From a virus, in the IMG/VR virus record IMGVR_UViG_3300009169_000013, positions 1 through 32,157 of that record: a stretch of 32,157 bases of DNA; one strand, written 5' to 3'. Below the pieces are notes generated by a model. The model did not search any database and had not been told where the DNA came from. It saw only the letters and a program-made list of their open reading frames with translations. Positions 2,839-24,126 of the stretch are shown here, piece after piece; position 1 is the first letter of the stretch; each line of letters opens with the position of its first letter. A program made the translations under genes and the position numbers.

Positions 2839-4251
2839 ATGAAAGAAATAATCACATATGATGTATATGTAGATGACCTAGATGAATTAGGCGTTGATAA
2901 GATATCTCTAGTTCGTAGACCCGCAATTTTGGAAAATTTTCTATATCTAAATAGCGATATAGATGAGGTTTATCAAGTCACTATGACTGATGACGAAAAA
3001 TTCATAATTACAGGCCCTGCTCTTATTCCAGATTTGCCTATCGTTCGTAAAGACGATGATGGCGAACCATATTATATAAAGTACTCGGCTTCGCAGATTG
3101 AGAAAATAGTACAAAAGTTCTTCAAATTGAAAGACCAATATGCTATAAATAAAGACCACAAGATTGACGTATCAAATGTGTATATGTATGAATCTTGGTT
3201 AGTGGGGGAAAATGATAAAAGTATCGAATTAGGTTTCGAAGTTCCACGTGGAACCTGGATGGTTTCCATGAAAATAGACGATATGGAAATTTGGGAGGGT
3301 ATTAAGTCAGGTAAGTATAAAGGTTTTTCAATTGAGGGCTTATTTAAATTTAAACGTACATCTAAATTGGTTAAACAAGCAGAATGTACTTGTGGCGATG
3401 ATCACAAAAGCGTAGAATTAGCTAAAATCGGTCTTGTTCATTATAATTGCAGATGCAACCTTACAAAAAACGAATTTAAATTAGGTTCTGCTAAAATCGG
3501 TGTAAACGGTGAACCAATTCCATGTCAATTATGCTTAGATGCAAAATTAGCGTGGGAAAATCAAGGTATGTTCACAGCATATGTTGGTGATGAAGAGTGG
3601 GAAACTTCATATTTCAAAAAGAAAACACTACAAGAAGGTGGCGACACCAGTGTTGAAATAGTTGCCTTAAAAGCAACAGATATAAAAAATAATATAATAA
3701 AACTAATGGTTAACACTATTTTAAAAGACGGTTCAACTATGTACACAGACGCTGATGCATTTGCAGTTGGTGCTGAGGTATATTTTATGAATGGAGAAGA
3801 GAAAGTTAAGGTTGACGCTGGTGAATATGAATTAGAAGATGGTAACGTTTTCGTAGTTGATGAAGCATCAGTGGTAGCTGAAATCAAAGAAATGGCCGCT
3901 CCAGCAGAGGAAGCACCTGTTGAAGAAGGTGTGAATAACACCGAAGCAGCAGAAGGTGAAGCAACTGAAGCTCCAGAAGAAGCCCCAGCAGCGGCTCCAG
4001 CGACAGTGGAAGAAATGGTAGCATATTTCCAACCTATATTAGAAGCAATTATGACATCATTAGATGAATTAAAAGCAACTCTAAATTTGAATCAATCAAA
4101 AGTAGATATAATTGAAACTAAAATGGAAAAGGCCATTCTAGAAAATGAGATGAAATCTGTTAAAGTGATAGATACAAAAAAAGATGTGAAACTATCAGCA
4201 GCTCATAAATTTGACTATGATACTATCACAAAATTAAATAAAAAGTTCTAA
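2839..4251 (+). CDS. Prohead protease, XkdF-like, with C-terminal scaffold-like region
   Basis: The N-terminal ~170 residues match the XkdF-type prohead serine protease pattern. They include KISLVRRPAI near 21-30, ITGPALIPDLPI at 57-68, a candidate catalytic His107 in NKDHK, and a candidate nucleophile Ser164 in KGFSIEG. A Cys-rich segment follows at 183-232 (CTC, HYNCRC, CQLC). The C-terminal half is Glu/Ala/Pro-rich and then coiled-coil, as expected of a scaffold that is cleaved and lost during head maturation. It directly precedes the major capsid gene, the usual arrangement. Residues 364-368 (GVNNT) are encoded by an in-frame copy of the 15-base palindrome. The protease call is firm; the exact catalytic residues are inferred from pattern. 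Confidence 0.82.
   Translation: MKEIITYDVYVDDLDELGVDKISLVRRPAILENFLYLNSDIDEVYQVTMTDDEKFIITGPALIPDLPIVRKDDDGEPYYIKYSASQIEKIVQKFFKLKDQYAINKDHKIDVSNVYMYESWLVGENDKSIELGFEVPRGTWMVSMKIDDMEIWEGIKSGKYKGFSIEGLFKFKRTSKLVKQAECTCGDDHKSVELAKIGLVHYNCRCNLTKNEFKLGSAKIGVNGEPIPCQLCLDAKLAWENQGMFTAYVGDEEWETSYFKKKTLQEGGDTSVEIVALKATDIKNNIIKLMVNTILKDGSTMYTDADAFAVGAEVYFMNGEEKVKVDAGEYELEDGNVFVVDEASVVAEIKEMAAPAEEAPVEEGVNNTEAAEGEATEAPEEAPAAAPATVEEMVAYFQPILEAIMTSLDELKATLNLNQSKVDIIETKMEKAILENEMKSVKVIDTKKDVKLSAAHKFDYDTITKLNKKF
3928..3942 (+). repeat. In-frame copy of the 15-base palindrome in the protease gene
   Basis: GGTGTGAATAACACC encodes Gly-Val-Asn-Asn-Thr within an acidic Glu/Ala linker. The other two forward frames of this element contain TGA or TAA, so it lies in the only forward frame that leaves the gene open. 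Confidence 0.9.
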
Positions 4252-4270
4252 TTCACCTTTATTGAATTAG
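4248..4270 (+). terminator. Hairpin at the protease/capsid boundary
   Basis: CTAATTCA and TGAATTAG form a perfect 8-bp stem with a 7-base loop, overlapping the protease stop codon. No T tract follows, so it may be an RNA processing or stability hairpin rather than a true terminator. Confidence 0.4.
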
Positions 4271-4314
4271 GTAGCAATACCACAAAAATAAAAATAAAAA
4301 TAAATAATTAAACA

Positions 4315-5214
4315 ATGAGTTCATTTATTAACAACACAACTTTCGAAGGTAAAAGCGCATTCGAATTTTATGCTGCTCTTTTAGACAGCGAATTTTCAAG
4401 CAGAAACGAGTGGAAAAACTTATCAAGTGTGAAAAACACTGTGAATGTACCACAAATTTCTTTAGCTGATATAACTAAAACTGGCGAGTATTGCGACTTC
4501 GGTGCTACTGGTTCAGTAACATTATCTCGTAAGAACGTTGAGGTATGTCCAACATACGTTAACCTTGAGATATGCAAAAAAGATATTGAGCCTACTTTCT
4601 TATCGGAAAGAATGAATGCTGGTCAATTAAATGGTGAGTACGCTCCTCAAGAAATGACTGATTTCCTTATCGACTATGTAAAAGAGCAAGTATTGGTAGA
4701 TATCGAAACACAAACATGGAACGGGTCAACTGCTAGTTGTGCTGGTGGTCTAGTAGGACAAGCTTTACTTGATTCTACTGTTATAGATGTTACCGCTGCA
4801 ACTGTATCTATTACTGCTGCAAACGTACTTGCTGAGATAGACAAAGTATTAGTTGCTACACCTGCTGCTGTTAGAGAAAAAGCTGACTTTAGAATTTATG
4901 TGTCTCGCGCAATCGAATTTTCTTTCCGTCAGGCAATCGGTGCTTTAACTATACCTTACTTCAAGGCTGGCGAAAAACCTGAGTTGGCATATAACGGTTA
5001 TGTATTGAAAGCTACACCTGGTCTTACTGCTAAACAAATGTTTGCAACTAACCTATCTAACCTTTGGAATATCAATGACTTAGGGTCCGATGAACAGCGT
5101 TTACTCGTTGTAGACATGACCAATAGCACAGCAGAGCCTAAAGCTCGTTTGGCTATGCAATTTAAGTATGCTCCATCTTATGGTGTAGGTGCTGAGGTTG
5201 TTTTATACGCTTAA
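4315..5214 (+). CDS. Major capsid protein (probable HK97 fold)
   Basis: The 299-residue protein follows the prohead protease and would form the icosahedral shell. The sequence has features common to capsid proteins of this phage group. The N-terminal region NTVNVPQISLADITKTGEY is followed by GSVTLSRKNVEV and then LEICKKDIEPTFLSERM, consistent with the N-arm/P-domain region. The C-terminal half contains FRIYVSRAIEFSFRQAIG and GYVLKATPGL. It ends in a beta-rich segment (AMQFKYAPSYGVGAEVVLY) typical of the last capsid strand. The leader is an AAAAT-repeat A/T run without Shine-Dalgarno. Codons are relatively well-behaved and use more C-ending codons than neighbours, as expected for a highly expressed gene (by eye). 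The assignment rests on position, size and pattern; the fold is inferred. Confidence 0.82.
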   Translation: MSSFINNTTFEGKSAFEFYAALLDSEFSSRNEWKNLSSVKNTVNVPQISLADITKTGEYCDFGATGSVTLSRKNVEVCPTYVNLEICKKDIEPTFLSERMNAGQLNGEYAPQEMTDFLIDYVKEQVLVDIETQTWNGSTASCAGGLVGQALLDSTVIDVTAATVSITAANVLAEIDKVLVATPAAVREKADFRIYVSRAIEFSFRQAIGALTIPYFKAGEKPELAYNGYVLKATPGLTAKQMFATNLSNLWNINDLGSDEQRLLVVDMTNSTAEPKARLAMQFKYAPSYGVGAEVVLYA

Positions 5215-5233
5215 AAAAAATAAGTATTTAGCT

Positions 5234-5263
5234 GATAACCCAGTGTAATATATCTGGGTTATC
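5234..5263 (+). terminator. Perfect 10-bp hairpin after the capsid gene
   Basis: GATAACCCAG pairs perfectly with CTGGGTTATC across a 10-base loop. It lies 19 bases after the capsid stop. There is no T tract, so it may attenuate readthrough or protect the capsid mRNA 3' end. Confidence 0.55.
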
Positions 5264-5277
5264 ATCTGGTACTAAAG

Positions 5278-5292
5278 GGTGTGAATAACACC
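5278..5292 (+). repeat. Intergenic copy of the 15-base palindrome
   Basis: GGTGTGAATAACACC lies between the capsid hairpin and the tail tube start. As + strand RNA it has a GAAUA loop. Confidence 0.9.
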
Positions 5293-5322
5293 AATATAAT
5301 AAAAATAAATTAAAAAAAAGAT

Positions 5323-5841
5323 ATGGCATTTTGCACAGACTTAGATAGAGGGCTAGATCCTTTTTGTGGTTGGAACCTTGGGGGCATAGCTACAGCTTTC
5401 ATCGCTGATTATGACCAAGTAGTTAGTTATGGCATGACTGGTGCTGCTTCTAATGTGATTGAAACTATCACTATGAGCGGTACATCGAGTGTTTTTTATG
5501 AATTTAAATTTCGTGAAGACACTAGTAGCATGGCACAAACAAACACACCTACATTAAACGCAGATATAGTTGACCAAGTTGGTACATTAGTATTCCAACA
5601 ACTTTCAACATCAAAAAACACAGCGTTCAACTTATTGAGAGGTAAGAAATTAGTAGTCATTTATAAAGACGCTAATGGACAATACTGGTTATCAGGCAAA
5701 CAGCTTGGTGCTAGAGTAACAAATATCGAACAGGTAACGGGCGCAGACCGCGCAGATGATAATATTTACACTCTAACTATTACTGCTAGAGAAGGTGATT
5801 TCGCATCAGAGGTTATTAACCTTGCAGCTATACCTGTTTAA
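5323..5841 (+). CDS. Major tail tube protein
   Basis: This 172-residue protein is a good candidate for the subunit that polymerises into the tail tube. It starts with a Cys-containing segment (CTDLDRGLDPFCGWNLGGI), a pattern I associate with tail tube proteins of Bacteroidetes phages. Beta-rich stretches follow: TSSVFYEFKFREDTSS, then LLRGKKLVVIYKDANGQYW with LSGKQLGARV, and a closing strand NIYTLTITAREGDFA. The gene sits between the capsid gene and a strong terminator. Size and position agree with a tube protein. An alternative would be another small structural beta-sandwich protein. Confidence 0.7.
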   Translation: MAFCTDLDRGLDPFCGWNLGGIATAFIADYDQVVSYGMTGAASNVIETITMSGTSSVFYEFKFREDTSSMAQTNTPTLNADIVDQVGTLVFQQLSTSKNTAFNLLRGKKLVVIYKDANGQYWLSGKQLGARVTNIEQVTGADRADDNIYTLTITAREGDFASEVINLAAIPV

Positions 5842-5902
5842 ACATTTTACTTAGGAACGTTAAATTACGGCTTGTAGGTGGAACACCATACAGTCGGTAA
5901 AA

Positions 5903-5933
5903 AGCACTAGATATACTCTAGTGCTTTTTTTTT
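5903..5933 (+). terminator. Strong rho-independent terminator
   Basis: AGCACTAGA (5903-5911) and TCTAGTGCT (5917-5925) form a perfect 9-bp stem with a TATAC loop. The stem is extendable by A-T pairs and followed by a run of nine T. The upstream A run makes it potentially bidirectional. It closes the capsid/tail-tube transcription unit. Confidence 0.93.
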
Positions 5934-5936
5934 GGA

Positions 5937-5957
5937 GGTGTTTATGTTATTCACACC
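5937..5957 (+). repeat. Degenerate copy of the GGTGT/ACACC element
   Basis: GGTGT and ACACC arms are present but separated by 11 bases. The right part, GTTATTCACACC, is the reverse complement of the common GGTGTGAATAAC form. It lies between the terminator and the gene at 5991. Confidence 0.45.
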
Positions 5958-5990
5958 TAAAACACAAAATAAACCTTTTCCAATATTTAT

Positions 5991-6542
5991 ATGATTATAA
6001 TTAACGCAGGAACAGTATCGAATATCACACTTAGGCTTAACGATATGACTATTGGTGCAACACCATCATTCCTATTTGAATTTACCTCAGTACAGAGTAA
6101 TATATCTACGTTGTTTACGGCAGAAGACATATCACCAACAGACAGATATAACAAATTTTCCATATATGAAATAACAGGAACGTTTGAAGGTCTAAACCCA
6201 ACCGCGAGTACCCCACGCATATTATTAGATTATGGTGGTGTTTATAATTACACAGTTTATGAAGTTGCGAATAGTGATATTTTAACTCCATCCGATGTTA
6301 TTCTCGATGAAGGCAAGATGATATTTAAAAACGGGGAATACTCGAATTTTTTTTTTGATATAAATGATGAAGATTCCCAATATATTTTCGATGAATATAC
6401 CGCGCTTTATAATTTCGATATAGATGATGATAATACTGTTGCCATATTCGATCCCGAATTTTTTGTTAGAGAATCGGGTTATATCTTAACCGAAGATGGT
6501 GAGATTATAATGACTGAAACAACAGATAACTTAATTTACTAA
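5991..6542 (+). CDS. Putative virion structural protein, tail-associated
   Basis: I do not recognise a named family with certainty. The first ~115 residues resemble a domain seen beside tail fibres in Bacteroidetes phages: an FLFEFTS strand near 27-33, a YNKFSIYEI segment, and ILLDYGGVYNYTVYE near 77-91. The C-terminal ~60 residues are strikingly acidic and aromatic (DINDEDSQ, DEYTAL, DIDDDNT), perhaps a duplicated strand or linker. The gene starts 58 bases after the strong terminator, so it probably has its own promoter or is reached by readthrough. It is followed 26 bases later by the first fibre gene, which suggests a role in fibre attachment; this is inference. Confidence 0.5.
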   Translation: MIIINAGTVSNITLRLNDMTIGATPSFLFEFTSVQSNISTLFTAEDISPTDRYNKFSIYEITGTFEGLNPTASTPRILLDYGGVYNYTVYEVANSDILTPSDVILDEGKMIFKNGEYSNFFFDINDEDSQYIFDEYTALYNFDIDDDNTVAIFDPEFFVRESGYILTEDGEIIMTETTDNLIY

Positions 6543-6568
6543 CACACCTAAAAAAAAAACCAGATAAT

Positions 6569-9256
6569 ATGGCTAATAAAAAAATAAGCGAACTTAACCC
6601 AATTGATGCACAGAATGTGCAAAAAGATATCGCTATCATACCATTCTCACAAGGAACTGAAACGTATAAATTAACAATTGAACAACTTGAATTGGTGATG
6701 CCTGGTATTGATGGCTCTAGCGGCACATCAGGCACAAGTGGCACAAGTGGTATAGATGGTTCATCTGGAACTAGCGGAACAAGTGGTATAAATGGCTCAT
6801 CTGGAACTAGTGGTACTAGCGGTAAAAGTGGTATAGATGGTTCATCTGGAACAAGCGGAACAAGCGGTATTGGTTCTTCAGGTACATCAGGTACATCAGG
6901 TATTGGTACAAATGGTTCGAGTGGCACTAGCGGTACATCTGGCCTAAACGGTTCAAGCGGAACAAGTGGTATAAATGGCTCATCTGGAACTAGTGGTACA
7001 AGTGGTATAAATGGCTCATCTGGAACTAGCGGTACAAGTGGTATTGGTTCTGATGGCTCAAGTGGAACTAGCGGTACTAGCGGTATTGGTTCTGATGGTT
7101 CAAGTGGCACATCTGGTACATCTGGAATAAATGGTAACGATGGTTCATCTGGAACTAGTGGTACAAGTGGTATTGGTTCTGATGGCTCAAGTGGAACTAG
7201 CGGTACTAGCGGTATTGGTTCTGATGGTTCAAGTGGTACATCAGGCACATCAGGAATAAATGGTAACGATGGCTCAAGTGGTACATCAGGCACATCGGGT
7301 ATAAATGGTAACGATGGCTCAAGCGGTACATCAGGAACATCAGGAATAAATGGTTCAAGTGGAACCAGCGGTACTAGCGGAATAAATGGCTCAAGTGGAA
7401 CTAGTGGCACATCTGGAACTTCGCCTGATGCGGCCTTATATGTACCTTTCGAAACACTTGAAGATGCCTCAGCTTTTACTGGTTGGTTAGATGGTGATAA
7501 TATAGATGTTTCTTATAATGTAACAAACAGAACTGTAACACTAACAGGCGATTTAACATATCAATTTAGAGGTAGAAAAACTACATTAGTTAGTCCTTTA
7601 ACATCTGCCGCACACGCAGATACAGTTGGAGCATGGTTCTATTCGTCATCTGATGGCGTAAATTTCGATTGGGTATTAAACACACCTTGGTTATTTGAAG
7701 ATATAATGGTGGCTTATGTTGCATACGATGGTGTAGCTGGTGATACTTTTTGTATTAAAGAAACACATGGCGTAATGGACTTTGAGAGTCATGAAGAATT
7801 TCACTCTCAAATAGGTACATATAGAGTAAATGGTGGCTCTTTAAAAGAAGGCACATATGCATTAAACACAGATACTGATGTTGCAACAACACCATCATTT
7901 AACCCAGCTTTGGTGAAAGATGAAGATGTATCTACTGTTATACCTGAATGGACGCAGGGGACATATACAACAATGTACATAGGTGCAACCTCATCGAGTG
8001 TATTTAGCACTACAAACGCATTCCCATTTTTATCAACTGGAAGTTACCTTAAGGTGAATGATGTAAACGCAGGAACTATCGCTGATGGTATAAGTGCTAG
8101 GTGGTATAACGTATATCAAATTATAATGCCTTGTGCAAGTGATTCACAATCACAAAAGTATAGAATGATTATGCTTCAACCACAAAGAACCTTTACATCA
8201 TTAGTATCGGCTCAAGCGGAAGATGTTAATTCAGTTGCTTTAGGTGAATTATCAACATTATCACCAGAATTTACATTATATGCTAGAATCACATATGAAA
8301 CTAAAAACACATATGCAAATACTGGTAAATTAATCATAGCAGGTGTTTCATACATAACAGGAAATAGATTATCATCTGTATCGCTAACTGGTGTAAGCAG
8401 CACCGACCACGCATCTCTTAGTAACTTAACATGGTTAAATTCTAACCACATTGGTAGTGCTAACAAATTAGCTGGTTTTAATGCTAGTGGTATTGCGGTT
8501 GAGTATGATTTAGGTGCATCTGGAACTTCTGGAACTTCTGGAACTTCGGGTATAAATGGAACAAGTGGCTCAAGTGGAACTAGTGGCACAAGTTTTCTTG
8601 CTGAGACTGTTTATCAATTTGACCCATATACTGGCCTTATTATTACACCTGACAATGGTGAATATGTTATAATGAATAACGCTCCATGGAGTGGTTTCAT
8701 TACATCTTTAACAACTCAAACGGTAGCTGGTTCTTGTAATATAGCAGTGATGATAAATGGTGCAACCGCATCTGGTTTTGCTACTGCAAGCACTACTTCA
8801 CAGGCTGTTATAACTGGTTCAGTTTCTTTTGTATCAACCGATGATATATCTGTTAATCTTACAAATAATAGTAGTGCTACTGATTTAAATTATACCATAG
8901 TATTACAAAGAGATGCCAATTTAGGCAGATCTGGTACTAGTGGAAGTAGCGGAATATCAGGTTCGAGCGGTACGAGTGGTACATCTGGTTTTGGTTCAAG
9001 CGGTACGAGTGGTACTAGCGGCACTAGTATATCATACATATTAAAATCTGGAACATTTACTACACCAGGCGTAGCAGATTACACTGTGAATTTTGGTACA
9101 CCATTCCCAAATACCAACTACGCGGTTGTATTTACACCATACCAATTAGAAAGTTCTACACCAGCGATAGTTAGTAAAGCGGTTGGTAGTTTTGTTATTG
9201 ACCCGTTTGCTGGGGGTACATATGATTGGATAGCGGTATCTCACAATAACGCATAG
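6569..9256 (+). CDS. Collagen-like tail fibre protein 1
   Basis: The 895-residue fibre begins with a short attachment-type segment (KKISELNPIDAQ, then an IAIIPFSQG strand). About 235 residues of Gly-X-Y repeats dominated by SGTSGTSG, GINGSSG and GIGSDG follow. A central globular region (about 290-650) contains a Trp/Tyr-rich beta domain and the element DHASLSNLTWLNSNHIG, typical of trimeric fibre shafts. A second short Gly-X-Y block leads to a ~110-residue beta module (FLAETVYQFDPY to VLQRDANL), which is duplicated in the gene at 28789. A third Gly-X-Y block and a C-terminal ~75-residue domain ending DWIAVSHNNA close the protein. It probably recognises the host surface. The repeats contain essentially no proline. 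Confidence 0.85.
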   Translation: MANKKISELNPIDAQNVQKDIAIIPFSQGTETYKLTIEQLELVMPGIDGSSGTSGTSGTSGIDGSSGTSGTSGINGSSGTSGTSGKSGIDGSSGTSGTSGIGSSGTSGTSGIGTNGSSGTSGTSGLNGSSGTSGINGSSGTSGTSGINGSSGTSGTSGIGSDGSSGTSGTSGIGSDGSSGTSGTSGINGNDGSSGTSGTSGIGSDGSSGTSGTSGIGSDGSSGTSGTSGINGNDGSSGTSGTSGINGNDGSSGTSGTSGINGSSGTSGTSGINGSSGTSGTSGTSPDAALYVPFETLEDASAFTGWLDGDNIDVSYNVTNRTVTLTGDLTYQFRGRKTTLVSPLTSAAHADTVGAWFYSSSDGVNFDWVLNTPWLFEDIMVAYVAYDGVAGDTFCIKETHGVMDFESHEEFHSQIGTYRVNGGSLKEGTYALNTDTDVATTPSFNPALVKDEDVSTVIPEWTQGTYTTMYIGATSSSVFSTTNAFPFLSTGSYLKVNDVNAGTIADGISARWYNVYQIIMPCASDSQSQKYRMIMLQPQRTFTSLVSAQAEDVNSVALGELSTLSPEFTLYARITYETKNTYANTGKLIIAGVSYITGNRLSSVSLTGVSSTDHASLSNLTWLNSNHIGSANKLAGFNASGIAVEYDLGASGTSGTSGTSGINGTSGSSGTSGTSFLAETVYQFDPYTGLIITPDNGEYVIMNNAPWSGFITSLTTQTVAGSCNIAVMINGATASGFATASTTSQAVITGSVSFVSTDDISVNLTNNSSATDLNYTIVLQRDANLGRSGTSGSSGISGSSGTSGTSGFGSSGTSGTSGTSISYILKSGTFTTPGVADYTVNFGTPFPNTNYAVVFTPYQLESSTPAIVSKAVGSFVIDPFAGGTYDWIAVSHNNA
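6704..7420 (+). repeat. Gly-X-Y coding repeat block of fibre 1
   Basis: About 240 codons of irregular 9-, 18- and 27-base units encode SGTSG, GINGSSG and GIGSDGSSG. Synonymous codons vary widely (AGT, AGC, TCA, TCT for Ser), so the DNA repeat is more degenerate than the protein repeat. Short interruptions such as GIG break the triplet register. The opposite strand stays open as a Pro/Val/Leu-rich shadow frame, which is not a gene. Confidence 0.9.
8512..9030 (+). repeat. Mobile-looking beta module bracketed by Gly-X-Y blocks
   Basis: Gly-X-Y coding DNA at 8512-8592 and 8932-9026 flanks a ~110-codon module. The module is about three quarters identical in protein to the one at 31580-31910, which is bracketed in the same way. 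The arrangement suggests domain transfer by recombination between the flanking repeats. Confidence 0.8.
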
Positions 9257-9275
9257 TAAAAAAAACGTATAATAT

Positions 9276-11144: not shown

Positions 11145-11159
11145 AAAAATAATAATAGT

Positions 11160-11516: not shown

Positions 11517-11519
11517 TGT

Positions 11520-11566
11520 GGTGTGATGGTGTGATGGTGTGATTAACACCTTAACACCTTAACACC
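11520..11566 (+). repeat. Compound palindrome: (GGTGTGAT)x3 then (TTAACACC)x3
   Basis: Three GGTGTGAT units at 11520-11543 are followed by TAACACC and two TTAACACC units to 11566. The centre (11536-11550) is a standard 15-base element, GGTGTGATTAACACC. The outer repeats are extra half-sites, so the RNA could form one long nested hairpin. It sits in the 124-base gap before the portal gene. Confidence 0.9.
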
Positions 11567-11640
11567 TTAAGAACACAATTCTATTTAATTCCATTATATG
11601 TAGTTCATCACACCACCTTAAAAAATAAATTAAACACAAT

Positions 11641-12792: not shown

Positions 12793-12795
12793 TAT

Positions 12796-13359: not shown

Positions 13360-13363
13360 ACAT

Positions 13364-13624: not shown

Positions 13625-13629
13625 AAACC

Positions 13630-14552: not shown

Positions 14553-14562
14553 AGGGTATAAC

Positions 14563-15942: not shown

Positions 15943-15949
15943 TGTCAGT

Positions 15950-16240: not shown

Positions 16241-16245
16241 CAATA

Positions 16246-16941
16246 TTAATGGGACAAAGATAAGTCAAATGTAACTATTTCACAAAAATTTTTATCTCGT
16301 TCTATACCTACCCAATATATGCCTTTTATCTCAGCCGCTCTTGCTACTGTACCACTGCCCATAAAAGGGTCTAGGACGCTCTGTGCTGCGGGGAAGCATG
16401 AGATGATATCTAGTGGCATTTGAATAGGAAAAGCTCTTGTATGCGCTCCTTTAGTGCCTACAGGTGTCCAATTAAATACATCACTGTGGTTAATATTATT
16501 GAACAACTTTGTCTTAGGACTTTTCGTTAACCAATACACACGCTCAGTCCATGGGTAAAATCTTATTTTATCAAAATTCTGTGATCTATTTACCCATACT
16601 ATCTCTTGTTTTATTAGCATATCTGTTTTAAATAACCACTCATATGGTGAAATCTGTACACCATTCTTTATTCTATTTTTATGGTTATAAAACATACTAC
16701 CACCCGATTTAAGTACCCTATAACATTCGTTTATTACTTCTATTTGCCATTGCTGGTACTCGTCTTCTGGCATATAATCATCATAGCATCCAGTTTTTTT
16801 ATTACCTGTATGATGATTATTTCCTAAATTGTATGGTGGTGATGTGATTATTAAATCAACCGATTCTGTGGGAATTGCTGTTATCTCATTTAGAACATCT
16901 CCATAATATAATAAACCTTTATCACTTTTATGATATAACAT
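16246..16941 (-). CDS. DNA methyltransferase (beta-class, amino-methyl)
   Basis: The 231-residue enzyme would transfer a methyl group from S-adenosylmethionine to an exocyclic amino group of adenine or cytosine. The catalytic motif IV TSPPYNLG is at residues 33-40. The AdoMet-binding motif I region, DPFMGSGTVA, is at 191-200, giving the IV-before-I order of beta-class enzymes. HTRAFPIQMP precedes it, as in related phage enzymes. SPPY is seen in N4-cytosine and some N6-adenine enzymes, so the base is unresolved. No restriction endonuclease is nearby; protection against host restriction is the likely role. It lies in a tightly packed early operon, 6 bases after the preceding gene. Confidence 0.9.
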   Translation of the reverse strand: MLYHKSDKGLLYYGDVLNEITAIPTESVDLIITSPPYNLGNNHHTGNKKTGCYDDYMPEDEYQQWQIEVINECYRVLKSGGSMFYNHKNRIKNGVQISPYEWLFKTDMLIKQEIVWVNRSQNFDKIRFYPWTERVYWLTKSPKTKLFNNINHSDVFNWTPVGTKGAHTRAFPIQMPLDIISCFPAAQSVLDPFMGSGTVARAAEIKGIYWVGIERDKNFCEIVTFDLSLSH

Positions 16942-16947
16942 TTAAAT

Positions 16948-17163
16948 CTATACCCTACCATTTATTTCCTTACGAAAATTCAAATCAGCTACTGATATAT
17001 CATCTGTATATGATGTTGCGTATAAACGTGCTCTTTCTTCGTGGTTTATTTTTCCTATAACAACAAGATACTCAATAAGTACTGGTTGAGGTGCTATGTG
17101 TGGCATTAGTTTAGCGCGGTAAATAGCATCTTTTAATATTTGTTCTGCTTCTTTTTCTTTCAT
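16948..17163 (-). CDS. Hypothetical protein, 71 residues
   Basis: No family is recognised. The small, mostly helical protein (EAEQILKDAIYRAKLMPHI, then PVLIEYLVVIGKINHEERAR) has no membrane segment. Its ATG overlaps the upstream stop as ATGA (17160-17163), so it is translationally coupled to the gene at 17160. The methyltransferase starts 6 bases downstream of its stop. Tight packing supports it as a real early gene. Confidence 0.65.
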   Translation of the reverse strand: MKEKEAEQILKDAIYRAKLMPHIAPQPVLIEYLVVIGKINHEERARLYATSYTDDISVADLNFRKEINGRV

Positions 17164-17444
17164 AAGTGTATTCTTTTTTCAATAAACATATTGCAAAAGC
17201 TAATATCTTGATTAATTGTTTCTAAAACATCAGCACTTGTTTTGTGAGTTTTGGCCGAAAATTGATATTTATACTGCACATCTTTACCAAATATGAAGTT
17301 CCAATTACCATTTGGCTCCACATGTAACAACATGTCACCTTTTTTAAAACCATCATATATGATATTAGCGGCTGTCTTTTTTATCAGTCTTCTTATCGCC
17401 CTTAAATTGTTGCGTCTATATTTTATGTCTTGTCTTGTTATCAT
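17160..17444 (-). CDS. Hypothetical basic protein, 94 residues
   Basis: The start is placed at ATG 17444, because it overlaps the preceding stop as ATGA; an in-frame ATG 36 bases upstream would overlap that gene unnecessarily. The N-terminus is strongly basic and helical (DIKYRRNNLRAIRRLIKKTA). It is followed by a beta-like part, DMLLHVEPNGNWNFIFGKD. An arginine-rich N-terminal helix can bind RNA or DNA, as in lambdoid N proteins, but that is only an analogy here. It lies in a chain of coupled early genes. Confidence 0.65.
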   Translation of the reverse strand: MITRQDIKYRRNNLRAIRRLIKKTAANIIYDGFKKGDMLLHVEPNGNWNFIFGKDVQYKYQFSAKTHKTSADVLETINQDISFCNMFIEKRIHL

Positions 17445-17623
17445 ATTACTATATCTTTTAATCGGAAAATACATGTACATTTATACTCTAGAAAATCAAT
17501 TACATTATCGAAATCACTTCTTTTTATTAAGTGTTCGATTATAGCGTATTCTTCTCTGTTGGTCTGTGATAAGACTATTAACTTTCTTGTTAAAAAATCT
17601 ATTCTTTTTAATTCTTCATTCAT
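17441..17623 (-). CDS. Hypothetical protein, 60 residues
   Basis: No family is recognised. The sequence is a short charged helix pair (ELKRIDFLTRKLIVL, EEYAIIEHLIKRSDF), ending with a CTC pair near the C-terminus (EYKCTCIFRL). The start overlaps the 3' end of the HNH gene by 8 bases, and its stop overlaps the next ATG by 4 bases. This is an arrangement expected for coupled translation. Confidence 0.6.
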   Translation of the reverse strand: MNEELKRIDFLTRKLIVLSQTNREEYAIIEHLIKRSDFDNVIDFLEYKCTCIFRLKDIVI

Positions 17624-18125
17624 ATCTCTTTTGGGCTGCTTCTTGGTATGCTCTAGCTGCGTCTTCTTCTGTTGTAAAACAACCTAAATGTCTAACTTTG
17701 CCATCTATGCTAATGTGTGCCAACCATCTTACTACTGAAGGTACGCCCTTGTTAAAGCACTGATGAAGAGAAACACCTATATACTGGCTGGTGTTTTTTC
17801 CATTAGCTTTACGTATTTTAGATATTAAACCGCTACAATGAACTATTTCCAAATTATTCACGGTGTTATCAGATATATCTTTGCTAAGGTGTTTAATAAT
17901 TTCACTGTTATTAGGCTTCCAACCTAACCAATACACCGCAACGAGTTTGTGAACTTGACGTGTAGCATATGTTTTATCATTTCTGAATAGCTTCGCTTTA
18001 TATTTTCCCGTGTCCTTACTTAAATAAAGTTTTAATATTCTGTTATTTTTGGTGTTGCGAACTTGCCCTAAATTACTGATTTCGTAATTAGGGAATTCTG
18101 TTATTACTTTCCATTCTTCTTTCAT
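17616..18125 (-). CDS. HNH homing endonuclease with NUMOD4 and AP2 domains
   Basis: The 169-residue protein has NUMOD4 at ~4-30 (EWKVITEFPNYEISNLGQVR) and an HNH_3-like core. The core includes VHKLVAVYWLG, IIKHLSKD in place of the usual HxDGD, and DNTVNNLEIV at 58-95. An AP2 DNA-binding domain fills 115-169 (YIGVS, WLAHISIDGKVRHLG, EEDAARAYQEAA). It would make a site-specific cut and spread itself, or act as a free-standing nuclease. The HxDG-to-HLSKD change might weaken metal binding. The gene lies among coupled early genes, with a palindrome copy 11 bases upstream of its start. Confidence 0.85.
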   Translation of the reverse strand: MKEEWKVITEFPNYEISNLGQVRNTKNNRILKLYLSKDTGKYKAKLFRNDKTYATRQVHKLVAVYWLGWKPNNSEIIKHLSKDISDNTVNNLEIVHCSGLISKIRKANGKNTSQYIGVSLHQCFNKGVPSVVRWLAHISIDGKVRHLGCFTTEEDAARAYQEAAQKRYE

Positions 18126-18136
18126 TTTTTTATTAT

Positions 18137-18151
18137 GGTGTTATTCACACC
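18137..18151 (-). repeat. 15-base palindrome in the HNH leader
   Basis: On the - strand, which is transcribed here, this reads GGTGTGAATAACACC, identical to the + strand copies. It lies 11 bases upstream of the HNH start codon and would form a GAAUA-loop hairpin in the mRNA leader. Confidence 0.88.
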
Positions 18152-18173
18152 TGATTATTTTTAATGTGGTCTT

Positions 18174-18197
18174 GGTATGCTACCTTGGTATTCTACC
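18174..18197 (-). repeat. Two GGTA-NNN-TACC palindromes
   Basis: On the + strand, GGTATGCTACC (18174-18184) and GGTATTCTACC (18187-18197) are separated by TT. They end one base from the stop codon of the gene at 18199. The arrangement is nearly the same as at 18654-18677. Confidence 0.85.
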
Positions 18198-18198
18198 G

Positions 18199-18570
18199 TT
18201 ATAAATCGGGGTTGAAGTCATTCAAGTACCTCTTGCATTTGCGAACATAATCAACCAGATTGTTGCAGTTATCATCGGATGGCATTGGCATGTTACGCGC
18301 TTTTATATCTTTTTTCACTTGCTTAAATAAAATAACTGCTTGGTCAAATTGCTGCTGTGACTCGTATCTTTCCATGCCATATTTAGAAATACTAGCGTTA
18401 ACGGCTGGAATTAGTTTTTCGATTTCTTCATTTTTGTAAGTTTTCATTTTAGAATTATCTTTAAATTTTTGTAGCATCAGATCATATTCTGATGGCTGCT
18501 TTTTTTTGATGTTGGCTCTTACTTGTTTGTAAACTTGCCTCATCTCTTCTCTTTGTTCCTGTGTGATCAT
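18199..18570 (-). CDS. Hypothetical protein, 123 residues
   Basis: No family is recognised. The helical, charged protein includes EQREEMRQVYKQVRANIKKK, then EEIEKLIPAVNASISKYGMER, and a C-terminal helix CNNLVDYVRKCKRYLNDF with two Cys residues. It has no membrane segment or signal peptide. It is flanked on both sides by short palindromes (GGTA-NNN-TACC), and its final residues (DFNPDL) and 3' flank resemble those of the gene at 18683 (FYDDL). This suggests that the 3' end, including the palindrome, has been copied. Confidence 0.6.
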   Translation of the reverse strand: MITQEQREEMRQVYKQVRANIKKKQPSEYDLMLQKFKDNSKMKTYKNEEIEKLIPAVNASISKYGMERYESQQQFDQAVILFKQVKKDIKARNMPMPSDDNCNNLVDYVRKCKRYLNDFNPDL

Positions 18571-18632
18571 ATAGTATATATTACATTTTTTTACTAAGTT
18601 TGCTATTTGTTAAATATTGAACGAAATAGTAT

Positions 18633-18640
18633 TTTACTGT
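18633..18640 (+). promoter_or_regulatory. TTTACTGT element
   Basis: TTTACTGT followed by TAATATTT lies in the 112-base gap between two early genes. The same octamer occurs three times in the 23017-23591 control region. It could be a regulator site or part of a promoter; no function is proven. Confidence 0.3.
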
Positions 18641-18653
18641 TAATATTTGGACA

Positions 18654-18677
18654 GGTATGCTACCTTGGTATGTTACC
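18654..18677 (-). repeat. Two GGTA-NNN-TACC palindromes
   Basis: On the + strand, GGTATGCTACC (18654-18664) and GGTATGTTACC (18667-18677) are separated by TT. They lie 5 bases before the stop codon of the gene at 18683. The surrounding bases (CCGTTATAAATCG after the palindromes) match the copy at 18174. Confidence 0.85.
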
Positions 18678-18682
18678 TACCG

Positions 18683-18964
18683 TTATAAATCGTCATAGAA
18701 ATTATCATTGAAGTCTAATTCCCTTATTTCGTAGAGAGTTGCGTAATAATCAGTTAAGTCGTCAACGATTTTAACGAGCTTAGGCAGCTTATCTTTTTGA
18801 TTCTCTACTACATCGAGCAACCACTGAGGAACGTGCATCCAGAGCGTTTTATGTAGGTAATCTGTCATGTTCTCGCCTTGTGGTGTAATGCGTGAAGTGT
18901 GGTCGAATAGTAGATTAACATCTATTTTGTTAATCATTAGTTGTTTAATTTCTCTACTTGTCAT
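18683..18964 (-). CDS. Hypothetical protein, 93 residues
   Basis: No family is recognised. The acidic, mostly helical protein contains EIKQLMINKIDVNLLFDHTS near the N-terminus, a Trp pair (LWMHVPQWLLDVVENQ) and an acidic C-terminus (NDNFYDDL). Its start overlaps the previous gene by 11 bases, which supports a coupled pair. No membrane or signal segment is visible. Confidence 0.65.
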   Translation of the reverse strand: MTSREIKQLMINKIDVNLLFDHTSRITPQGENMTDYLHKTLWMHVPQWLLDVVENQKDKLPKLVKIVDDLTDYYATLYEIRELDFNDNFYDDL

Positions 18965-19235
18965 AATTCTTTAATTTTTTTTTTGATATTGGCCTATTGT
19001 AACTATATTTTTCTTTGAATTTAAAAATAGCATGATCAGATGCACGGTACATTTCAAACATATCTTCTAGACCATTAACATAATTCCATTGAACGTGTAT
19101 AGCCTCGTCTAGTAACTGTGCTTTTTTAGGCACAGAAGGTTCCACGGAGCCTGAGAGTATGTCCATTGTGGTGTTCTTTTTCACTAACTCTTTGTAGGTT
19201 GTGACTATGTTTTGGTAATATTCTTTAGCGTTCAT
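18954..19235 (-). CDS. Hypothetical protein, 93 residues
   Basis: No family is recognised. The helical protein contains EYYQNIVTTYKELVKKNTT and AIHVQWNYVNGLEDMFEMY, with a Lys-rich C-terminus (SKKKLKNYDK). It lies 48 bases downstream of the nuclease-like gene. Its 3' end overlaps the next gene by 11 bases. Its role is unknown; the place in the operon suggests an early replication or host-takeover accessory. Confidence 0.65.
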   Translation of the reverse strand: MNAKEYYQNIVTTYKELVKKNTTMDILSGSVEPSVPKKAQLLDEAIHVQWNYVNGLEDMFEMYRASDHAIFKFKEKYSYNRPISKKKLKNYDK

Positions 19236-19283
19236 TTTCTTATCGCAAATATAGTTAGTATTAGCATAACTTTTTATTTTTTT

Positions 19284-19901
19284 TTAATGTAGCTCTAAAT
19301 TTTTTGTTTTATGTATTGCTCTTAAATGTGTGTGTTTATTATGAAAATTGATGAATAACTGTTTCAATTTTTCATTAGTTATGTTATATTCATTATCTAC
19401 ATATTTTACTAAATCGCAATAATCTAAATTTTTTTTTTGTTTTAATAATTCCATGAATTTTGATACTAATTCCACAAACTTCAAATCATAATGATCTATG
19501 TGAGTATTGTTGTTAACTAGAGGTATTCCAGTTAGTGGGCAAACAGGCTCTGGGTTGTTTTTGAAGAAATTAAATCTAAATTCCATTGAAATAGGTGCTA
19601 TAGCTTCACGGAAAGCACCTACTACTTTGATTTTTTCAGATTTTTCTCCTATTGTGTTGGTTGAAATATTCTCTTGATCAGTTAGAGAATATGACATAAC
19701 AGTTCTTTCACCTTTTCTACCTCTTACAAGTTTCATTTCTATTATATCTTTTGTTTCTATAATGCCTATTCTATCTGGCCTATATTTTAGGAGGAAGTTT
19801 TTCAATGTTGTTAAGTCCTCTTCAGAAAATGTGTCACCTATATTGTATTTGTCTCTGATTTTTTTGTTTATGTCTAGTATTGATTTTTTTGTTTGCTTCA
19901 T
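19284..19901 (-). CDS. HNH-like nuclease, DUF3223/DCL-like
   Basis: The 205-residue protein has an FREAI segment near 97-101. CPLTGIPL follows at 121-128, then THIDHYDLKFVELVSKF at 133-149. This Cys...HxDH arrangement is a DUF3223/DCL or HNH-type pattern. The family probably has a metal-dependent nuclease core. Its ATG overlaps the primase-helicase stop by 4 bases (ATGA, 19898-19901), so the two are translated together and the nuclease may act at replication intermediates. That role is inference. A second Cys pair to complete a zinc site is not obvious. Confidence 0.6.
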   Translation of the reverse strand: MKQTKKSILDINKKIRDKYNIGDTFSEEDLTTLKNFLLKYRPDRIGIIETKDIIEMKLVRGRKGERTVMSYSLTDQENISTNTIGEKSEKIKVVGAFREAIAPISMEFRFNFFKNNPEPVCPLTGIPLVNNNTHIDHYDLKFVELVSKFMELLKQKKNLDYCDLVKYVDNEYNITNEKLKQLFINFHNKHTHLRAIHKTKNLELH

Positions 19902-22816
19902 ATTGAAAATGATGTTTTTTCTTTTAATGTTTCTACTATTTTTTCTTTAAAAAATAACCCTGCCGAATTTAAACAAAACACACGTTGCGTTTCATCTTTT
20001 CTTAAATATTCAACATCATATTCATCAGCAAATGATTTTCTAATATAATCTCTCTGAAATTTACTTAACCTGCTATAACTGTTATTGAACCCCTCTTGTT
20101 TTAGTTTAGTGTTCCACTTAGTGATAATCTTTTTAGATGAAAGGAAATTTTTTGGTGTTATTTTTGTTTGTGGTGATGTGAATAATAATTCTTCGTTTAT
20201 CACCTCTAATAGTATTTCATATTTTTGATCATCAGCTAATTCATTTTGAATTTTAGTTTCGAAACCTTCAGTTGAGTTGTATTTCTCAATGCCGTTGTTT
20301 AAATAAAACTGAACACATTTTGCAACAAACAATGCATGTTGGCTCCAATCTTCTTCTTGATCATCAGAGAATATTGTATATGGTCTTTCTAAATTGAATT
20401 CTTGTTGTAACCAATTTTCTAATGGGTTTTTTTTTCTATGAAAAAAATCAGTTGTGTGGAAAAAATATAATCTTGTCAAAATACTATCATGATTGATAGG
20501 TGGTGTGTGATTACTAATCATCATTAATCTAGGTGTGGTTTTAATATCTGTTGTCATAAAATCAACACCTTTTTTCTCATATTTTAAATTGAAACCAGTG
20601 ACAGCTTTTGATATTCCTTCAAGATCATATTGGTTCCAAAGAATATCATCATGTACTATTAACTGATGTTCAAGAGTTAAATCACTTAACCCAAACGTTG
20701 AAATTTTAGGTGATTGCGTGACATTTGAACGTCTGAAAAAAGAACACAATACACTAATTAAAGATTTGCCACTACCAGTACCCACTTCGATAGATTCTAT
20801 TCCATCTAGAATGATGACACACTTGTTTTTATTCGCTGCTCTGTAAGTGTGTATCATATAGCCGATAATAGCCTTCGCATAATCATAATTTTTTTCATCG
20901 CCAGTGATTTTTTTCAATGCTTTTAAAAATTTATAATTCTTTAATGTGATATCTTCATTCCATATAATGTGATTTCCTCTTAGATCTTTTGCTAATTGTG
21001 TTTCTAAAATGAAATCGGCTTTTGTGTAATCTAATGATGTTATTTCCTCTTTTGTTATTTTCAGTTTTTTGTTTGTAAAAAATAAATAAGAACTTTCTCG
21101 TGTGTCGTTTTGTTTTCTTTCATGAATATCAATTTCCTTGTAATTCAATTTGGACATCAAATTTTTTGTTTGTATTTTGTCTATGATTGCTAATTTTATA
21201 TTTGATAATTCATCACCAGAATAATCTTCTTTAAAATAATTATCTAAGAATATGTGTAAGAATTTGTTTAGCTTGTTTACAGATTTTATGTTGCCGTTCC
21301 ATATTTGTTTTACTAAGTGGTTGTCTTTAGTGTATAAAATAAACTCAGAATCATCTTTCAAAGTGAAAAATATATCTAATAAAACTTTTTCTAAATTGGC
21401 TGTATTTATTTGTATTTTATCTTTATCATCATAATACACAAGTTCTAATTTTCTAGCTAAACCTAACTCATTTAACAACATTGTTTTCAATTTGTAAACA
21501 TGTTTGTAAAATATAAAATCGTTCTTTTGTTGTTTTTTATAAAGAGGTACTATGTAATTTTCTACCGTTCTTTTTTTAGCTTCATCATCTGTTATTCTCT
21601 GGTCAGTTGGTGATATCAATAACAAATGTTTAAATACATAAGCTAATTGGTTTGGTGTCAATACATTTGAAATAGAATTAAGTAAATCACGAGTTCTTTT
21701 ATACATCTGAACTCCATCACATAATGGTTGGTAATTGTTTTCTTTGCCAATCTTGATAATTTCGTCCATTACAGTTAAAATCTCTTTTTGTGCATCTCTG
21801 AGTTCTTCGTCTGTTAAACTAACAATCGATGTGTTTTGTAATTTTTCATCAGTTAGTGTTGTTATTGATGGTGATGATGATGAACTCGGTAATTTAAAGC
21901 TAAATATGTCTTTATCAGTTAATTCTAATACATCTGTTTCTTTATATTCAATGGTACGATCAAGATATTTACCTAAATACCATGCGCGAGAAATATTTTT
22001 ACATGAAAGGTCTAATTCTAGATTTCTGTCAATACCATTACTCTTAATAACTATTTCTGATAATATTGTTTGTATTTTAATAAAAAACAATTTATTATAA
22101 TCGTCATATAATGCTGGTAGTAAATCAGTAGTGACTTTTTTTATACCTTTTAAGTGAGCATAATGTCTCACTGCTTTATCATCTATTTTGACATTGAAAA
22201 TAATTCGATGCGTTTTACTAGGTGAGCATAAGGTTAATGCAATTGGTATTTTTTCATTTACTTTTTCAAGTAAATCATTCTGATCATCGATAGGAATATC
22301 TATATCTATGGGGAATAAACCACTATGTCCTATAACATCGGCTGTTGCTTTGTGAAAACTGTCTAGTGGGTAATGTGCCACATACATAACAGGTGATATG
22401 CTTTTCTTTAAAGAATATACACCCTTTTTCATTTCATTTGATGTGTCAAATATTCTACCTAATAAGGTTTCGTCTAATATGTGTACTAATGGTACGAAAT
22501 CATCAATACTTATTGTTTTTTTTTCTTTATCAATATGTAATAAAGCATCATAATTTATCTTACCATCGTTATATACATCTTTTAATAAATAGCCTAATAA
22601 ATAGCTGTTGCGCATAATAGCTTCACTATTATTAGTAACTAATTTTTTTGCTTTTAATAAATTATCTTCACTGTATTTTTTAAAACCACTAAGTTTATCT
22701 AAATTGTCAAAAAAATCTTTATCAGCGGAGTTAAATGTTTTTATCAATTCGTCTAAAGGAATTCTTCTTATATCACCTAATTGACGAATATTATTTACTA
22801 ATGTGATTGACTGCAT
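19898..22816 (-). CDS. Primase-helicase: AEP-type primase fused to SF3-like helicase
   Basis: The 972-residue enzyme is the main replication protein. The N-terminal part resembles an archaeo-eukaryotic (VirE/BT4734-like) primase: a DID metal motif at 171-173 in FPIDIDIP, SPSKTHRIIF at 198-207, and SRAWYLG at 276-282. The C-terminal part resembles a D5/SF3 helicase: Walker A GTGSGKS at 679-685, a Walker B-like QLIVHDDILW at 718-727, the motif-C-like PRLMMISNHTPP at 762-773, and a possible arginine finger at Arg782. Such fusions prime and unwind phage DNA. No DNA polymerase is encoded, so host polymerase is presumably used. It follows the small gene at 22822 by 5 bases. Confidence 0.85.
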   Translation of the reverse strand: MQSITLVNNIRQLGDIRRIPLDELIKTFNSADKDFFDNLDKLSGFKKYSEDNLLKAKKLVTNNSEAIMRNSYLLGYLLKDVYNDGKINYDALLHIDKEKKTISIDDFVPLVHILDETLLGRIFDTSNEMKKGVYSLKKSISPVMYVAHYPLDSFHKATADVIGHSGLFPIDIDIPIDDQNDLLEKVNEKIPIALTLCSPSKTHRIIFNVKIDDKAVRHYAHLKGIKKVTTDLLPALYDDYNKLFFIKIQTILSEIVIKSNGIDRNLELDLSCKNISRAWYLGKYLDRTIEYKETDVLELTDKDIFSFKLPSSSSSPSITTLTDEKLQNTSIVSLTDEELRDAQKEILTVMDEIIKIGKENNYQPLCDGVQMYKRTRDLLNSISNVLTPNQLAYVFKHLLLISPTDQRITDDEAKKRTVENYIVPLYKKQQKNDFIFYKHVYKLKTMLLNELGLARKLELVYYDDKDKIQINTANLEKVLLDIFFTLKDDSEFILYTKDNHLVKQIWNGNIKSVNKLNKFLHIFLDNYFKEDYSGDELSNIKLAIIDKIQTKNLMSKLNYKEIDIHERKQNDTRESSYLFFTNKKLKITKEEITSLDYTKADFILETQLAKDLRGNHIIWNEDITLKNYKFLKALKKITGDEKNYDYAKAIIGYMIHTYRAANKNKCVIILDGIESIEVGTGSGKSLISVLCSFFRRSNVTQSPKISTFGLSDLTLEHQLIVHDDILWNQYDLEGISKAVTGFNLKYEKKGVDFMTTDIKTTPRLMMISNHTPPINHDSILTRLYFFHTTDFFHRKKNPLENWLQQEFNLERPYTIFSDDQEEDWSQHALFVAKCVQFYLNNGIEKYNSTEGFETKIQNELADDQKYEILLEVINEELLFTSPQTKITPKNFLSSKKIITKWNTKLKQEGFNNSYSRLSKFQRDYIRKSFADEYDVEYLRKDETQRVFCLNSAGLFFKEKIVETLKEKTSFSI

Positions 22817-22821
22817 TATTA

Positions 22822-23016
22822 TTATTTCTCTGTATTTTTTATGTAGATTTTACCAAACTCTACTGCTTCTGGTTGTGTTTGTACTAAACTATCTTCTATT
22901 ATTTTACCTAGAGATGGTGATTTGTATAATAAATTACCTTGGTTTTTGAGATGAAAATCTCTTTGGAGTTTTTTTAATGTGATGTGTAATGAATCACTAA
23001 TCTTTAACATTTGCAT
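22822..23016 (-). CDS. Small early protein, 64 residues
   Basis: No family is recognised. The short protein has LKISDSLHITLKKLQRDF, then GKIIEDSLVQTQPEAVEFG. The N-terminal strand followed by two helices could be a ribbon-helix-helix-like DNA-binding fold, but the match is weak. It is the first gene of the leftward early operon, directly after the control region, a usual place for a regulator or replication accessory. A second ATG at 23010 is also possible as the start. Confidence 0.55.
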   Translation of the reverse strand: MQMLKISDSLHITLKKLQRDFHLKNQGNLLYKSPSLGKIIEDSLVQTQPEAVEFGKIYIKNTEK

Positions 23017-23182
23017 AATTTTTATAATTTATTTTTTGATTGATATGATATATATTATAAAAAGTCCACGAGTTTACTGTTTTTTGAAAAAAAGTTGTAT
23101 AAATTACGACCCTTATTTAGTCTAAATAGTGAGGCTTATTTAGAATGATGTTAAACATGATGTTTTTACTGTAATATTTAAC

Positions 23183-23193
23183 GGTAGCATACC
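23183..23193 (-). repeat. GGTA-NNN-TACC palindrome in control region
   Basis: GGTAGCATACC on the + strand is GGTATGCTACC on the - strand, identical to the first unit of the two early-operon pairs. It lies 6 bases upstream of the small open frame at 23200. Confidence 0.75.
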
Positions 23194-23199
23194 AAAAAA

Positions 23200-23352
23200 A
23201 TGAATAGAAATTTACCCTTAAAAAATAAAAAGTGGTGGTGTTTTTATATGTGTTTTAAATTTAAGGAGATTTTTGATGAAGATGATGATCTGTGTTCCCC
23301 GCCCTTTAAATTCAAATTCCCTTTAAAAACACTTTTTTCATTTTCATCATAA
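23200..23352 (+). CDS. Possible small protein, 50 residues
   Basis: This open frame has an ATG after a run of A, like other genes here. It encodes NRNLPLKNKKWWCFYMCFK, then an acidic part (EIFDEDDDLCSPPF) and FKFKFPLKTLFSFSS. It contains three Cys residues and no known motif. It lies inside a probable control region and could be chance. The aromatic/Cys-rich composition is unusual for noncoding AT-rich DNA, but it is not proof. Confidence 0.3.
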   Translation: MNRNLPLKNKKWWCFYMCFKFKEIFDEDDDLCSPPFKFKFPLKTLFSFSS

Positions 23353-23591
23353 TAAAAGGGGAGTTGCGTTGGTGTTTTTGTAATGGCGTTTTTTGATGTT
23401 TTTTCCTCTTATCCCCTTAATTCCTTAATAATTAAATTATACATATAAAATACAGTAAACATTAACAAATATACAATAATGATAAAGATTATATGTATTT
23501 ATATGGTGCTACTGAAACACGAAGGGTTTAGAGTAAAGGGGGAGAAATAAAAAACCCCCACCAACCCAACTATATTTTTCCAATATCTTAT

Positions 23592-24026
23592 ATGAAATCT
23601 ATCACCTTTTTATTAGGTATCATCATAATATCATGTACTCCAACAGCAATTAATGTTGAACCTATAACTGAATATTGCGTATCAATTCCAAAATACGAAC
23701 AGAGCTTATGTTTAGCTGAACCACATGACACTTTAGCAGGTGTTAATCACACCCCGATGATATATGTAGATCGGCTTAACTTAAATAAAAACTTCAAAGA
23801 TTTAACTATGCATTATATGATGATAGTTTCAATCGATGGAGATGTGTACACACTATCAAATTTGAAATATAGTTGTAAAGTTAAATTTGATGATGGTGTG
23901 AATAACACTGGTGTGAATAACACCTCCGAAGTCAAGATACAAGATATGTATTATGTTATTATCAAGCAAGAGTATTTAGATAGTTCCGTTGTTGTGGGCT
24001 TCACAGGTGTGAATGACACACTATAA
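23592..24026 (+). CDS. Small lipoprotein carrying four GVNxT elements
   Basis: The 144-residue protein begins with a short signal peptide and lipobox (TFLLGIIIISC, acylated Cys15), so it would be lipid-anchored in a host membrane. No family is recognised. A lysis spanin or superinfection-exclusion lipoprotein is possible. Four copies of the 15-base palindrome lie in frame: GVNHT at 50-54, GVNNT at 102-106 and 107-111, and GVNDT at 139-143, the last touching the C-terminus. The element makes up 20 of 144 residues. It is the first gene of the rightward late unit and is followed by a hairpin containing another copy. Confidence 0.75.
   Translation: MKSITFLLGIIIISCTPTAINVEPITEYCVSIPKYEQSLCLAEPHDTLAGVNHTPMIYVDRLNLNKNFKDLTMHYMMIVSIDGDVYTLSNLKYSCKVKFDDGVNNTGVNNTSEVKIQDMYYVIIKQEYLDSSVVVGFTGVNDTL
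23739..23753 (+). repeat. In-frame palindrome copy (GVNHT)
   Basis: GGTGTTAATCACACC is identical to the units of the array at 2734-2799, but here it is coding. Confidence 0.92.
23895..23924 (+). repeat. Two direct in-frame palindrome copies (GVNNTGVNNT)
   Basis: GGTGTGAATAACACT (23895-23909) is followed with no spacer by GGTGTGAATAACACC (23910-23924). The first copy has one arm mismatch (ACACT). The 15-base direct duplication keeps the frame. Confidence 0.92.
24006..24020 (+). repeat. Imperfect palindrome copy at the lipoprotein 3' end
   Basis: GGTGTGAATGACACA encodes GVNDT, followed by Leu and the stop. The right arm has lost its last C and the loop ends in G. Confidence 0.75.
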
Positions 24027-24033
24027 AAAAACC

Positions 24034-24107: not shown

Positions 24108-24126
24108 GGTGTGATTAATTCACACC
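24108..24126 (+). repeat. Longer variant palindrome upstream of the late sigma gene
   Basis: GGTGTGA-TTAAT-TCACACC has 7-bp arms, two base pairs longer than the standard element. It lies 48 bases upstream of the gp55-like start, in a possible promoter or leader region. Confidence 0.85.

Follow-up and report, generated by a model that had tools for sequence, protein, structure and literature searches.

A 15-base hairpin-forming repeat dispersed through a phage genome and its possible role as an RNA element at gene junctions

The whole IMG/VR virus record IMGVR_UViG_3300009169_000013, a stretch of 32,157 bases referred to below as the window, carries a short dispersed element, GGTGTGAATAACACC in its main form, which is found between genes and, in frame, within two proteins. 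We consider it possible, though somewhat short of probable, that this is a lineage-specific and sequence-specific cis element acting as a small RNA hairpin at gene junctions. Among the functions considered, an RNA hairpin is ranked first, followed about equally by a site in DNA and a selfish repeat. This preference arises because the element greatly exceeds its expected number, is concentrated in intergenic sequence, is absent from related phages, tends to keep its loop in one orientation and has been built up into long hairpins.

A search of both strands with GGTGTGAATAACACC, allowing up to three mismatches (<=3), yielded 30 matches against an expectation of 0.75 and a maximum of four in 100 shuffled sequences. 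When overlapping places are counted once, these correspond to about 16 copies of a 15-base unit at 11 loci. Seven of the 11 loci (2717-2799, 5278, 5937-5957, 11520-11566, 18137, 24045 and 24108) and 11 of the 16 copies are intergenic, whereas intergenic sequence accounts for only 8.7% of the bases (p 9e-6 by locus). There are two intact versions, the main form and a second form, GGTGTTAATCACACC; exact copies sit in unrelated flanks, and tandem expansions occur with periods of 17, 15 and 8.

As RNA the main form reads GGUGU-GAAUA-ACACC, and each intact copy folds into a 5-bp stem (GGUGU/ACACC) closed by a 5-base loop, GAAUA or UAAUC, with a predicted energy of -5.6 or -4.2 kcal/mol. An earlier interpretation made from the letters of the window, here called the sequence-only reading, had described the element as a palindrome; the 5-bp arms do pair around the loop, but the palindrome is imperfect, with either G..A or T..C, never a complementary pair, at positions 6 and 10 of all intact copies. 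Long hairpins have grown from the element at two junctions, and at a third it is nested in a larger one. The array at 2717-2799 folds into a single long, nested hairpin (-31.5 kcal/mol, z -6.0 against shuffles), the structure at 11520-11566, with three 8-bp half-units per arm, reaches -24.2 kcal/mol (z -5.9), and the hairpin at 24030-24075, which encloses the copy at 24045, has values of -23.0 kcal/mol on the plus strand and -26.4 kcal/mol on the minus strand (z -4.5). Downstream of most copies lie A-rich leaders and not T runs, and identification of the copies as intrinsic terminators was rejected. An Rfam search with the element gave no match.

The sense-strand loop carries AAU at eight of the nine loci counted (one-sided binomial 0.02). 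It is GAAUA at 3928, 5278, 18137, 23895/23910 and 24045, GAAUG at 24006 and UAAUC in the array at 2734 and at 23739, the exception being GAUUA at 11536. At 18137, the sole minus-strand locus, the loop is turned along with its gene, and these observations suggest that loop orientation follows transcription.

The element was most likely gained in the lineage of the window, since related records lack it and gaps at gene junctions of a relative contain the copies. A capsid-protein search of viral contigs produced seven relatives, six of them at 80-90% identity, and the same search of species genomes produced none. The pattern GGTGTN5ACACC was not found on either strand of six related records, one of which, L099, is only 2.2 kb long. 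In the relative L102, three gene junctions have gaps that include the places of the window's copies at 2717-2799, 5278 and 5937-5957, the last gap spanning about one copy directly after a terminator, and the copy at 5278 is also absent from the relative L105. Gain in this lineage is thus supported, and with it a part of the sequence-only reading. Because L105 bears a different strong hairpin, GGCTGGTCTC-GAAA-GAGGCCGGCC, of unrelated sequence at the same capsid junction, a hairpin may be used there with turnover of its sequence. Paired sites were found nowhere else in the viral or species-genome collections, which may omit the records closest to the window. A single-site search of 2.9 million viral contigs gave 87 stretches, which were rejected as relatives of the element, their contexts being those of unrelated chance matches. 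A looser paired pattern led to one unrelated contig with local tandem hairpin arrays of the same arms inside one gene, which was set aside as a lookalike. In an unrelated contig (L111:1527-1748), a 523-residue open reading frame (ORF) contains three different tandem arrays, of 17, 24 and 13 bp, adjacent in one linker.

Table 1. Copies of the element in the window and the ORFs associated with them
Feature	Position	Strand	Remarks
Five-copy array, 17-bp period, first copy degenerate	2717..2799	+	Between tape-measure ORF and protease ORF
Protease ORF (Peptidase_S78_2)	2839..4251	+	Holds one copy in variable linker
GGTGTGAATAACACC in frame in protease linker, GVNNT	3928..3942	+	Sequence match; gap in three relatives
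GGTGTGAATAACACC in leader of ORF 5323, after capsid gene	5278..5292	+	Absent in L102 and L105
Off-type copy GGTGTTTATGTTATTCACACC, directly after intrinsic terminator	5937..5957	+	Segment spanned by gap in L102
Three GGTGTGAT units then three TAACACCT units, forming one extended hairpin	11520..11566	+	Before portal gene
Orphan ORF of 93 residues, Arg-rich N-terminal stretch	17160..17441	-	Candidate RNA-binding partner, lead only
GGTGTGAATAACACC, 11 nt before minus-strand HNH endonuclease ORF	18137..18151	-	Orientation flips with transcription direction
Orphan lipoprotein-like ORF	23592..24026	+	Holds four copies
GGTGTTAATCACACC in lipoprotein-like ORF, GVNHT	23739..23753	+	Sequence match
Two head-to-tail copies, 15-bp period, in lipoprotein-like ORF, GVNNTGVNNT	23895..23924	+	Sequence match
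Degenerate copy GGTGTGAATGACACA, 3' end of lipoprotein-like ORF, GVNDT	24006..24020	+	Sequence match
GGTGTGAATAACACC nested in larger hairpin after lipoprotein-like ORF	24045..24059	+	Folding
Off-type copy GGTGTGATTAATTCACACC, 7-bp arms, before sigma-like ORF 24174	24108..24126	+	Sequence match and folding

In the favoured explanation, the element would form a small hairpin in phage mRNAs, mainly at gene junctions, and this hairpin, or the longer ones built from several copies, would be recognised by a trans factor and/or would set transcript boundaries. A binding protein, perhaps N-like, is presumed. The lambda boxB hairpin follows a loop rule whereby a GNRNA pentaloop with a closing U-A pair folds like a GNRA tetraloop; the GAAUA copies, with their 5-bp stem and closing U-A pair, obey this rule and the UAAUC and GAUUA copies do not (PMC12027372). 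Phage boxB is also known with a UMAC-type loop that mimics this fold (PMC12550061), and the UAAUC loop could, in our interpretation, be such a mimic.

Of all 18-residue stretches in the proteome, the one densest in Arg, RQDIKYRRNNLRAIRRLI, lies at the N-terminus of the 93-residue protein encoded at 17160-17441 on the minus strand. A helix is predicted for this stretch with low confidence, and the protein yielded no relatives. Arginine-rich small proteins are not rare, and we treat the protein as a candidate RNA-binding partner of the hairpin, as a lead only. By eye, its Arg-rich stretch resembles the N-type RNA-binding peptides. A more far-reaching proposal, that a Bacteroidota phage evolved a boxB-like hairpin together with its own Arg-rich RNA-binding protein, and that the hairpin then multiplied at junctions and even in coding sequence as a genome-wide code for antitermination or transcript processing, strikes us as improbable.

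The copies within proteins lie, as had been noted, at 3928-3942 in the protease ORF and at 23739, 23895, 23910 and 24006 in the ORF at 23592-24026, and all five are in the same frame (frame 1), giving GVNNT, GVNHT, GVNNT, GVNNT and GVNDT in positional order. Three of the four lipoprotein copies are not exactly the element quoted in the sequence-only reading: that at 23739 is GGTGTTAATCACACC, that at 23895 is GGTGTGAATAACACT and that at 24006 is degenerate. The same reading held that TGA or TAA occurs in the other two forward frames, which is correct for GGTGTGAATAACACC and fails for GGTGTTAATCACACC, where there is a stop in one other frame only. With stops in both of its other sense frames, the main form can survive in a gene in frame 1 only, and the shared reading frame is a filter by stop codons and not independent evidence. 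As a reverse complement, the main form has no stop in any of the three frames, yet all coding copies of this form are in the sense orientation, which can be accommodated in one frame only; since the reverse orientation would be the easier to accommodate, the shared orientation is not expected from stop codons.

One coding copy sits in a protease linker rich in Glu, Ala and Pro, the other four in the orphan lipoprotein-like ORF, and all of them would represent spill-over of the RNA hairpin, in stop-free frames, into places that tolerate five extra residues. It had been proposed that insertion would be visible as a five-residue gap in homologues. GVNNT does coincide with a gap of five residues in three protease relatives; the linker is of low complexity, with neighbouring gaps, and its alignment is unreliable at the level of residues. 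No relative keeps GVNNT in other codons; such conservation had been named as the outcome that would refute insertion, and it was not seen. The lipoprotein-like ORF shows phage-like codon use with or without the codons of the element. Family scans and relative searches gave it neither a family nor a relative, the terminase query likewise retrieved no relatives, and the AlphaFold model of the lipoprotein, with a predicted local distance difference test (pLDDT) score of 34, was uninformative.

Several points weigh against the RNA hairpin. The orientation result was noticed post hoc for nine loci, some of which are in one gene, and the lipoprotein copies are perhaps not independent of each other. 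The arms show no compensatory changes, and arms that stay constant would be just as compatible with a DNA-binding site or with recent copying. Copies vary in orientation and in the middle base of the loop, as in GAUUA at 11536, two loci (5937 and 24108) are off-type, and the binding partner is a putative one. Some of these features would be expected of an operator- or stoperator-like site for a dimeric or asymmetric regulator, or of a dispersed partition-type site. Such a function in DNA, which we judge unlikely although it deserves serious consideration, would account for arms that are constant without compensation, for the concentration of copies in intergenic sequence and for the asymmetric unit GGTGTGAWTAACACC, which runs forward with transcription at seven of nine loci. 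Moreover, stoperators are dispersed 13-bp asymmetric sites that occur mostly in one orientation (PMC6550527), and sopC-type sites can be scattered (PMC5016525). However, no repressor, integrase or ParAB was recognised among the window proteins scanned, many of them orphans, and the extended and nested hairpin designs are unnecessary for a DNA site.

Alternatively, the element may be a functionless selfish or mutational micro-repeat, a hairpin spread by copying or template switching and expanded by slippage, which survives where it is harmless; to this we attach a similarly low probability. Exact copies in unrelated flanks, the tandem expansions, relatives without the element and the tolerant locations of the coding copies are all as expected, and the same-arm arrays in the one unrelated contig indicate that such local expansion occurs elsewhere. 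Against this, neither a transposase nor a target duplication was seen, known mobile palindromes are longer than the 15-bp unit, the copies are biased in orientation, and two extended hairpins keep their paired architecture. Selection at the protein level, where GVNxT might serve as a surface motif or as one that is modified and the similarity in DNA would be secondary, is very improbable: it would explain the shared GVN(N/H/D)T of the five coding copies, but most copies of the element lie outside proteins, the identity is one of nucleotides and not of residues alone, and the peptide is missing from the protease relatives.

Turning to the rest of the genome, the presumed host is described here as a Bacteroidota-type bacterium. 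Terminases of several phages, those of Bacteroides and Flavobacterium among them, resemble that of the window, and the capsid protein has a distant likeness to a Nonlabens phage capsid. On the basis of the ORF list and of the relatives L102 and L105, the genes are arranged in the order tape measure, protease, capsid, two small ORFs, fibres and portal, with a replication block on the minus strand. The ORF at 17616-18125 (minus strand) encodes a NUMOD4/HNH endonuclease with an AP2-like tail, and one that is 29% identical occurs at another place in L105. Homing by this neighbouring enzyme was rejected as the source of the element; such endonucleases usually cut one site, which leaves sixteen copies unexplained. 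The product of the ORF at 24174-24572 (plus strand) shows a weak likeness to late sigma factors (phrog_234, E 2e-4) and has a relative in L108. In the leaders of L102 and L105, ACAATATAAATATG precedes several start codons and contains TATAAATA, as T4 late promoters do. After removal of the element copies, none of the 1024 pentamers is more strongly over-represented on the sense strand of coding sequence than ACACC, the sequence of the 3' arm, which occurs 45 times against 31 in within-gene, junction-preserving synonymous shuffles (z 4.8); GGTGT is not over-represented, and ACACC is not enriched in L102 and L105, where simpler global shuffles were used. Long collagen-like SGTSGTSG repeats are encoded at 6569-9256 and 28789-32157 on the plus strand. 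The first 31 bases of the record, which lie inside this repeat, are identical to the last 31, and the record may represent a circular genome or one in which the repeat has collapsed at the ends.

Dispersed short palindromes are known from bacterial chromosomes and a few phage groups. Among these the present case is unusually small and recent: a phage genome of 32 kb holds about sixteen copies of a 15-base unit, which was probably acquired after the lineage had separated from relatives whose capsid proteins are 80% identical. The system could be used to distinguish selfish spread from an origin as binding sites of a phage regulator. Should the RNA hairpin prove correct, it would point to boxB-like transcript control in Bacteroidota phages, of which no description was found in the literature searched.

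Among known palindromic repeats, the Rickettsia palindromic elements likewise occur in frame in proteins, and they had been invoked in the sequence-only reading beside selection for the nucleic acid motif overriding the protein sequence. The latter is the likelier half of that suggestion. Units of the Rickettsia elements measure about 150 bp and have a conserved ORF peptide (PMC10969869), and an assignment to them was rejected for an element of 15 bp that is mostly non-coding and carries no long conserved peptide. Repetitive extragenic palindromic (REP) sequences and bacterial interspersed mosaic elements (BIMEs) are also short intergenic palindromes present singly and in clusters. REPs are palindromes of 20-40 bp that bear a GTAG or CGTC tag (PMC3733652), whereas the present element has 15 bp, lacks such a tag in its flanks and resides in a phage, and it was not accepted as a REP; the scanned proteins included no REP-associated tyrosine transposase (RAYT). 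They also included no member of a Par family (ParA/ParB) that would parallel SopAB and the dispersed centromere of the N15 type. Mycobacteriophage stoperators, like the element, are short asymmetric sites scattered over a single phage genome, and most of them face one way relative to transcription, as the unit does at seven of nine loci here; they differ in being 13 bp long (PMC6550527), in contrast to the 15-bp, near-palindromic unit with its tandem and nested arrays, and in that neither a repressor nor an integrase was recognised here.

There is a likeness in structure to the boxB hairpins of lambdoid nut sites, which are also 15-nt hairpins with a 5-bp stem, a closing U-A pair and, as in the main form, a GNRNA loop. 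They differ from the present element in that there are one or two nut sites, as opposed to many copies genome-wide in a Bacteroidota-type phage, and in that the second loop form of the element lies outside GNRNA and the N protein is a putative one. Stem-loops at phage gene junctions are also represented by the mobile promoter stem-loops of T4-type phages (PeSLs), which the element resembles in form and location; PeSLs carry a promoter, whereas the element described here is known as a stem-loop repeat alone.

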